NCBI GenBank assembly: GCA_009778575.1 | Contig: WRJJ01000008.1 | Span: 1-33,965, forward strand | Reading direction: 5' to 3' | DNA length: 33,965 nt | From: Methanomassiliicoccaceae archaeon | GTDB lineage: Archaea; Thermoplasmatota; Thermoplasmata; Methanomassiliicoccales; Methanomethylophilaceae | Made by a program: the position numbers and the translations under genes | Notes under the pieces: model-generated | The model's database searches: none | What the model was told of the DNA's origin: nothing | What the model saw: only the letters and a program-made list of their open reading frames with translations | Shown here: piece after piece, positions 2,310-3,781 of the stretch | How positions within the stretch are numbered: position 1 is the stretch's first letter | Layout: every line of letters begins with the position of its first letter

Positions 2310-2580
2310 CAATGCATTAATAACAAGGCAATACTATGGTAAAAGGCCGAACCGGCGTAAGGGCCCGATATATGAAGGCCATGTGCACGGGGCGGCTCAC
2401 AGCGACCCTGTCCCTGAAAAGGGGCTCTTGCGGTAGCAGCGATGTGTCATCGCAGCCATGACCGGAAGCCAACGCGGGGTCCGACACATACTCCCGGCGT
2501 AAGTCAGTGCTTCGAGACCGGTGTCATCACCGGGCGATGAAAATGTGTGTTAGCGCCGGGAGACACCTGGTGTTTTAACT
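2310..2580 (+). ncRNA. candidate structured RNA of unassigned family
   Basis: A GC-rich block stands out in an AT-rich gap with no convincing ORF. Visible helices on the plus strand are a perfect 9-bp stem 2491-2499/2554-2562, a hairpin CCGGTG-TCAT-CACCGG (2518-2533), GCGATG-TGT-CATCGC (2439-2453) and CCCT-GAAA-AGGG (2412-2423). ATGTGTC (2442-2448) can pair instead with GACACAT (2483-2489), and ACACAT (2484-2489) with ATGTGT (2543-2548), so alternative folds or a pseudoknot are possible. The decamer CCGGCGTAAG occurs twice (2352-2361 and 2494-2503). The 3' side ends in ACACCTGGTGTTTT, terminator-like. TATA-like sequences lie near 2249-2257 and 2284-2290; the ends are approximate. I do not see the SRP helix-8 signature or the RNase P GAGGAAAGTC core. 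Confidence 0.45.
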
Positions 2581-2583
2581 TGG

Positions 2584-2973
2584 TCATGGGTCGCGCTTTT
2601 CGTCCCGAAACATATCGGCATATTCCCTGAGGGCATACGACTGGGACTTGGTCATAGCCATGTATGATCCTATGATTATGCTCTCAAGTATCTCGTCTTT
2701 CGTGGCCCCCGCCTGTGCGGCATGGTGCATTTGTACCCTCACGCAATGCTGCCCTCCGAGAGCGGCGGCCGCGGACACGGCCGCGAGATACCTCATCTTC
2801 GGGTCAAGCTCTCCTTTTCCTTCCAGTACGGCCTTTCCCAGATTTGCGGAAGGTATGAACATGTCGGGACGCTCGGATAGGACCTGGTTCACTACAGGTA
2901 TGAAGCCGAACTGGTCCTCGATGGCTTTCAGTATCTTCTCGGTGATCTCCCGTTCCTTAGGATCTTCCTGCAT
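2584..2973 (-). CDS. carboxymuconolactone decarboxylase-like (AhpD-fold) protein
   Basis: This 129-residue protein has the all-helical CMD/AhpD fold signature: a long helix, then HCVRVQMHHAAQAGATKDEIL around 76-96. AhpD-type members carry CxxC plus a nearby His and act in peroxide or disulfide chemistry. Here only Cys77 remains; the first Cys position is Gly74 and the usual His four residues after the second Cys is Gln81, with His83-His84 close by. Classical AhpD disulfide reductase activity is therefore unlikely, and a decarboxylase-like or still unknown role is possible. The gene stands alone on the minus strand, 10 bp from the strong 3' structure of the candidate RNA on the other strand. 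Confidence 0.75.
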   Translation of the reverse strand: MQEDPKEREITEKILKAIEDQFGFIPVVNQVLSERPDMFIPSANLGKAVLEGKGELDPKMRYLAAVSAAAALGGQHCVRVQMHHAAQAGATKDEILESIIIGSYMAMTKSQSYALREYADMFRDEKRDP

Positions 2974-3103
2974 GATGCTCTATCGTGTTCGACATTATCA
3001 TACTTTCCGAAAACTAACTGCTAATTGTAGTTTCTTGTTTTTTAATGGGTATTTCTCCCCTCCAAATATCCATACGATGAACATCGTTGGGGGGAAAAGA
3101 AAA

Positions 3104-3781
3104 ATGGAAACTGAAGAGGTCCTTAGGACCAAGTTCAAGGAGATCGGGAGAGAATATGGGTTTGATAAAGTAGAAGCGGAATTCGTTGCTTTCAAGGAAT
3201 TCAAAGTAAGGTGGCAGAGGAGCTACAAGTGGGCGGATTTTAAAGTGTCAGACTATCTTGCTGACGCTCCTCCGGAAGTGATCGAGGGACTGTGCAATTC
3301 TCTTTTTTCCAAGATCACGGGGGACGACGAGGGATATTCCGACGAGATGTGCAGATGGATAACCGCGCCGGAGTTCTCGGAGTACAAACAGCCGGTATAT
3401 TTGAAGAGGAGCAGAAATCTCACCAGGTCCTCCAGAGGAGAGACGAAGGACCTCGGGTCTGCATACGACAGGCTGATAGAGATGGGGCTGGTGGAGAGAG
3501 ATCCCATGGTCCACATTTCGTGGACAAAGGAGTCAAGCGTGAGGAAGATAGGCCACTGTTCCGTGCTTATGAAAGTGATAACCATCTCCAGCGTTCTGGA
3601 CACTGACATGGTCCCGGACTTCGTCCTCGACTACTGCCTGTACCATGAATTATGCCACCTCATGATAGGTTTCGATCCGTCGGCGAAGGTGCATGGGAAA
3701 GAGTTCCTGAAACTTGAGACGAAATATCCGAAAAGAGACGAAGCGGAGGAGTGGCTGAAGAGGCTTTGCCTGTATCTTTGA
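3104..3781 (+). CDS. SprT/YgjP-like zinc metallopeptidase domain protein
   Basis: The product is 225 residues long. HELCH at 181-185 with a third ligand His197 in HGKEF gives the HExxH...H zinc site of SprT-like, DUF45/YgjP-related peptidases. The N-terminal 100 residues are charged, rich in Trp and Tyr, and match nothing I recognise. I chose the ATG at 3104 because GGGGGG lies about ten bases upstream; an in-frame ATG at 3077 would add nine residues. The reading frame stays open further upstream, but that part is antisense to the CMD-like gene and is not credible as coding. No signal peptide is visible, so the protein is probably cytosolic. The substrate is unknown. Confidence 0.7.
   Translation: METEEVLRTKFKEIGREYGFDKVEAEFVAFKEFKVRWQRSYKWADFKVSDYLADAPPEVIEGLCNSLFSKITGDDEGYSDEMCRWITAPEFSEYKQPVYLKRSRNLTRSSRGETKDLGSAYDRLIEMGLVERDPMVHISWTKESSVRKIGHCSVLMKVITISSVLDTDMVPDFVLDYCLYHELCHLMIGFDPSAKVHGKEFLKLETKYPKRDEAEEWLKRLCLYL

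Follow-up and report, generated by a model that had tools for sequence, protein, structure and literature searches.

Archaeal H/ACA guide RNAs

Archaeal H/ACA sRNAs are recognized by hairpins that contain a kink-turn or kink-loop and end in an ACA box, with 14-16 nt separating the 3′ pocket from the ACA (PMC7991803, PMC4652768). In HgcG/Pab40/Pf7/Tko1 of the Thermococcales (RF00064), and in Afu4 of Archaeoglobus, three such hairpins lie next to one another, each followed by ACA. The third hairpin of Pab40, Pf7, and Afu4 guides modification of a uridine in helix 69 of the 23S rRNA (E. coli 1915, equivalent to Ψ1956 of Haloferax volcanii and Ψ2016 of P. abyssi), and both Pab40 and Afu4 modify this site in vitro (PMC4652768, PMC2584109). 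The last hairpin of an H. volcanii H/ACA RNA also targets Ψ1915 in helix 69, and was described as a homolog of Pf7 stem III (PMC2584109). A literature search that mostly covered sources other than subscription journals returned no description of H/ACA RNAs in Thermoplasmata or Methanomassiliicoccales.

The window (the whole stretch of 33,965 nt analysed here, from a Methanomassiliicoccaceae archaeon) very probably encodes a free-standing, three-hairpin H/ACA sRNA at about positions 2345-2566 of the plus strand, in which hairpin III would address U1915, hairpin II most likely a second 23S uridine, and hairpin I may be targetless. This reading is built on sequence: the fold, the ACA boxes, the kink-turns, the promoter, the conservation, the guide complementarity, and one co-change of guide and target. 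From these features we infer transcription, RNP assembly, and pseudouridylation. The three adjacent hairpins with ACA after each are shared with the HgcG group and Afu4; the H. volcanii RNA differs in having two hairpins and a long spacer (PMC2584109).

Locus and promoter

The features of the locus are as follows.

9-2096 and 2587-2973, minus strand: acyl-CoA-synthetase-like gene and second gene, between which lies the AT-rich gap holding the RNA block
2317-2323, plus strand: putative TATA box TTAATAA, at an A+T peak upstream of hairpin I
2345-2397, plus strand: hairpin I; helices 1 and 2 covary
2399-2401, plus strand: ACA box of hairpin I; ACA in 40 of 45 relatives
2402-2483, plus strand: hairpin II; helices 3-7 covary, UGA invariant
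2421-2426, plus strand: predicted 5′ guide arm of hairpin II, GGGGCU (class consensus UGGGUC), complementary to 23S GCCC(A)
2469-2474, plus strand: predicted 3′ guide arm of hairpin II, CCAACG (class consensus ACAACCC), complementary to 23S GGGUUG
2484-2486, plus strand: ACA box of hairpin II; ACA in 39 of 45 relatives, ATA in 5
2491-2562, plus strand: hairpin III; helices 8-10 covary, GAG and UGA in 45 of 45
2501-2506, plus strand: predicted 5′ guide arm of hairpin III, AAGUCA (class consensus GGGUCA); GUCA in 45 of 45, pairs with helix 69 UGAC(CC)
2549-2552, plus strand: predicted 3′ guide arm of hairpin III, GUUA; in 45 of 45, pairs with helix 69 UAAC
2563-2565, plus strand: ACA box of hairpin III; ACA in 45 of 45 relatives

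A first-pass annotation had described a GC-rich, ORF-free block in an AT-rich gap. The block has a GC content of 62%, and is roughly free of open reading frames, apart from two short frames (61 and 66 aa), put down to chance, that overlap its 5′ edge. Across 45 orthologous loci, the A+T content reaches 91-98% at −28 to −23 from the start of hairpin I, compared to 40-60% around it. Since this is the expected place of an archaeal TATA box, TTAATAA is read as one, and the TATA-like element noted earlier is both real and conserved. The T-run that had been pointed out downstream resembles no recognizable terminator, and no other terminator was recognized downstream of the block. No gene follows on the same strand: the gene at 2587-2973 belongs to the carboxymuconolactone-decarboxylase family (Pfam). 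At the orthologous loci, most family members keep the acyl-CoA-synthetase gene upstream, and many have the decarboxylase-like gene downstream. From this arrangement we infer that the RNA is, as first proposed, a free-standing transcription unit with its own TATA promoter. Further along the plus strand, the frame 2648-3781 encodes a protein with YHELCHLMIGF near its 3′ end, an HExxH-like zinc-protease motif; the protein is presumably SprT-like.

Fold and conservation of the RNA

Each hairpin carries a kink-turn (II and III) or a kink-loop (I) with tandem G-A motifs in its upper stem, followed by an ACA box. Three hairpins of this kind under a conserved TATA box indicate an archaeal H/ACA pseudouridine-guide sRNA. 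In hairpin I, a lower stem of 9-10 bp with a bulged A2387 leads to an upper stem (2362-2365/2377-2380) and a kink-loop, G2367A2368/U2373G2374A2375, whose GA and UGA are kept in 42 and 44 of 45 relatives, respectively. A short extra helix (2355-2357/2384-2386) occupies the usual place of the guide pocket. Hairpin II consists of a lower stem (2404-2410/2475-2481), an upper stem (2427-2433/2462-2468), a kink-turn (U2434A2435/C2457AUGA2461), and an apical stem (2436-2444/2448-2456); its kink motif, KA..UGA, is nearly invariant in the 45 relatives, and the 5′ side of its pocket holds an extra helix (2412-2415/2421-2424). The TGT-looped hairpin seen at first sight (2439-2444/2448-2453) falls within it. 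The small CCCTGAAAAGGGG hairpin is likewise present. In hairpin III, the lower stem of 9 bp (2491-2499/2554-2562) is followed by the pocket, an upper stem (2507-2512/2543-2548), a kink-turn with the same GA..UGA motif as hairpin I (G2514A2515/U2538G2539A2540), and an apical stem (2518-2523/2528-2533). This 9-bp stem, already proposed as perfect, is exact; as helix 8 it is 98.3% paired among relatives, and five of its nine pairs have changed on both sides. In hairpins II and III, the pocket can pair with rRNA on either side of a uridine and lies 14 nt from the ACA; hairpin I offers no such pocket.

The folding energy of the whole block has a z-score of −2.3 against shuffles on the plus strand, versus −1.2 on the minus strand, and −4.1 for hairpin III alone. 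By BLASTN, the block is present in 48 of 101 relatives, all of one family. In an alignment of 45 full copies, a 62-pair structure has 94.6% of its cells paired and compensatory changes at 38 of its pairs; none of 500 shuffles reaches any of these measures, and slid-pair controls are 33-45% paired. RNAalifold independently gave nearly the same pairs. The covariation search suggested with the first description thus yielded a conserved block with covarying helices. The repeated decamer from that description, CCGGCGTAAG, does occur exactly twice (at 2352 and 2494), but was rejected as a functional element, since it is not conserved and its copy in hairpin I covaries with its own partner strand.

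A covariance model built on this RNA (R1) finds a match, nearly always a single copy, in 29 of the 30 genera of the order (133 of 147 genomes). Of 250 genomes sampled across the class, 137 have a match, and about 90 of these lie outside the order. When 40 copies from across the class were aligned, 88.4% of the cells were paired and compensatory changes were seen in 58 of 62 pairs, figures that are biased towards the model, to which this second alignment was fitted. Judged by these matches, the RNA is single-copy and conserved across the whole class Thermoplasmata.

Relationship to HgcG

A search of the window against Rfam, at the gathering score and at an E-value of 10, returned no relevant match, HgcG included. 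The label of an unassigned family in the first-pass annotation is nevertheless not supported, as the relatives place the RNA among the H/ACA guide sRNAs related to HgcG/Pab40. Matches to mir-7964 and DdR11 were dismissed as chance. Two orthologues from the class (L095 and L122) match HgcG over its full length (positions 1-276) with 66.7-67.9 bits (E = 1e-16 to 6e-18); weaker matches occur in many other orthologues, among them one from the window's own genus (L002; 23.6 bits, E = 0.006), and all fall below the Rfam gathering score of 77 bits. Neither the window, which has no match, nor its best orthologues (66.7-67.9 bits) would therefore enter RF00064 at that score. Homology is instead traced in two steps, as R1 ties the window RNA to L095 and L122, which in turn match HgcG. 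By this chain, the window RNA is an unannotated, fast-diverged relative of HgcG/Pab40 that the Rfam cut-off misses, and a stable RNA of methanogens and their relatives would thereby be identified.

The 77-bit cut-off also leaves out other clearly homologous Thermoplasmata loci, L096 and L101 among them (about 20-68 bits, L095 and L122 included). On these scores the HgcG family is under-annotated, at least in the Thermoplasmata sequences tested, and a model made from the present alignment would close the gap.

An unusually large side of the hairpin II pocket is common to Pab40 (Pa40.2, PMC4652768) and the window RNA. Unlike in HgcG, a covarying helix closes the pocket of hairpin I in the window's family, and the pocket of hairpin II holds an additional covarying helix. 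The core proteins Cbf5 (TIGR00425, G000:C1) and Nop10 (PF04135, G000:C4) are encoded in the window's genome. In the assembled RNP, every hairpin would have L7Ae on its kink-turn or kink-loop, and its ACA box and lower stem would be bound by Cbf5-Nop10-Gar1.

Alternative readings

A novel structured RNA of another class, such as a regulatory RNA or a riboswitch that merely resembles H/ACA, would explain why the window has no Rfam match and why hairpin I lacks an obvious guide pocket. Against it stand the ACA boxes, the kink-turns, the 14-nt spacing, the conserved guide arms, the HgcG matches of orthologues, and the promoter of its own with no downstream gene on the same strand; this reading is improbable. 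Size and GC content would suit a known housekeeping RNA overlooked by eye, yet the block matches neither RNase P RNA (RF00373) nor SRP RNA (RF01857), whose true genes were located above the Rfam cut-offs on other contigs of the same genome (G000:C2 and G000:C30, respectively). The chance of such an oversight is negligible, and the earlier comparison by eye, which gave no match to SRP RNA, RNase P, or a riboswitch, is supported.

It had also been suggested that GACACAT, now recognized as the region around hairpin II's ACA box, could exchange partners between 2442-2448 and 2543-2548, giving a fold switch or pseudoknot; in a rival reading, the H/ACA RNA would act mainly as such a switch. The strands are indeed complementary in the window, and across relatives the first of the two pairings reaches 83% paired. 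Its covariation, however, is no higher than that of shuffles, all pairs form in only 12 of 45 relatives for the first alternative and in 1 of 45 for the second, and both partner strands belong to conserved stems. A switch is even less probable than a novel class.

Hairpin III and helix 69

The relevant part of the 23S rRNA is absent from the assembly of the window's genome, and the rRNAs of relatives were scored instead. With the arms GUCA/GUUA, the U of GUAAC[UA]UGACCC in helix 69 was the top-ranked of the approximately 650-685 LSU uridines in five genomes out of six and the runner-up in the remaining one; it also had the best mean score over the six genomes for LSU and SSU together. As this match was first noticed by eye and scored afterwards, the ranking is a check rather than a blind prediction. 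With the class-consensus arms GGGUCA/GUUA, the helix 69 site was clearly ahead in scoring and was the sole full match, where 0.1 chance matches are expected per LSU plus SSU. The window's own 5′ arm, AAGUCA, as in the rest of its genus, allows a pairing of 4 + 4 nt, two pairs fewer than GGGUCA. The 3′ arm GUUAG (5 nt) and the 9-bp lower stem correspond to the productive 5/9 geometry (PMC4652768).

The corresponding arms in HgcG are GGGUUA/GUUAC, beside GGGUCA/GUUA in Thermoplasmata, with the same target; by complementarity, the third hairpin is thus directed to the E. coli 1915 uridine in both. The pocket of hairpin III would open onto helix 69 and present the U1915 equivalent for conversion to pseudouridine, which would account for the means by which Thermoplasmata modify this functionally central site. 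The H. volcanii RNA with HP1 and HP2, which we take to be sR-h45, is also a predicted guide of Ψ1917 and Ψ2586; arms that would fit these two sites were not seen in the window RNA.

When GGGUCA in the search pattern was exchanged for GAGUCA, 257 Gb of sequence yielded 15 stretches, of which 14 came from Thermoplasmata, and R1 confirmed all 14. The carriers are haloalkaliphilic Thermoplasmata (L129-L137 and L139-L143). Helix 69 reads UGACUC in all four of these genomes with a complete 23S rRNA at this position, versus UGACCC in 14 of 14 other genomes examined. By this comparison, one clade combines GAGUCA with UGACUC where the other genomes have GGGUCA with UGACCC, a joint change of guide RNA and rRNA target that probably arose in a single evolutionary event and shows the two altering in concert.

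A probable second site in 23S rRNA for hairpin II

In the 5′ arm of hairpin II, every listed family member has GGG, as does most of the class, and CAAC is conserved in the 3′ arm in both the family and the class alignments. The class arms UGGGU/ACAACCC match 23S GGGUUGU[UC]GCCCA in six of six genomes, where 0.005 chance matches are expected per LSU plus SSU. Scored with these arms, this site ranked first and SSU 1257 second. Another candidate, column 1409 of the LSU alignment, scored equally with genus-level arms but fell back when those of another genus were used, and was set aside. The evidence supports, with moderate strength, a prediction that hairpin II guides modification of the first or second U of GGGGUUG[UU]CGCCC, which it would present in its pocket. 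Counted from U2552, the first U presumably corresponds to about E. coli 2526 (the pair to about U2526/2527). With the helix 69 uridine, this makes two predicted 23S pseudouridines that are now directly testable. The HgcG arms, UAACCC/GAGGUC, differ from ACAACCC/UGGGU of Thermoplasmata, and the specificity of hairpin II thus seems to have changed, with a probable target different from that of HgcG.

Another family (f18) is unlike the rest of the class in both its hairpin II arm, CCAGA (L104, L119, and L120), and its 23S site, GGGGCUGUACGCCC (L145 and L148). The site reads GGGGCUG-UA-CGCCC in these two genomes; one arm position tracks this site (A to G in the arm, U to C in the 23S rRNA), and another does not. 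Because the second U of the target is lost here, the first U is favoured. The apical part of hairpin III is shortened in f18.

Hairpin I

The would-be guide arms of hairpin I pair with each other and covary, with GC in 25 and AU in 20 copies at one pair. A scan with arms from five of the six genomes, indicative in nature, brought out no consistent rRNA site. In the window's family, hairpin I looks like a hairpin of the H/ACA type in which a covarying helix closes most of the pocket, and it may be without an rRNA target. A tentative scenario, somewhat doubtful as a whole, is that Thermoplasmata retargeted an ancestral Pab40-type hairpin II to an apparently undescribed site in domain V of the 23S rRNA, with the target displacing the extra helix, while the pocketless hairpin I of Methanomethylophilaceae was kept for RNP assembly and not for guiding.

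Among distant homologues (L103, L121, and several more), hairpin I is very different from family to family in both length and sequence; one example is a much longer apical part containing AGUACCCCAGCACUGUGA. Such variation suggests a lineage-specific use of this hairpin.
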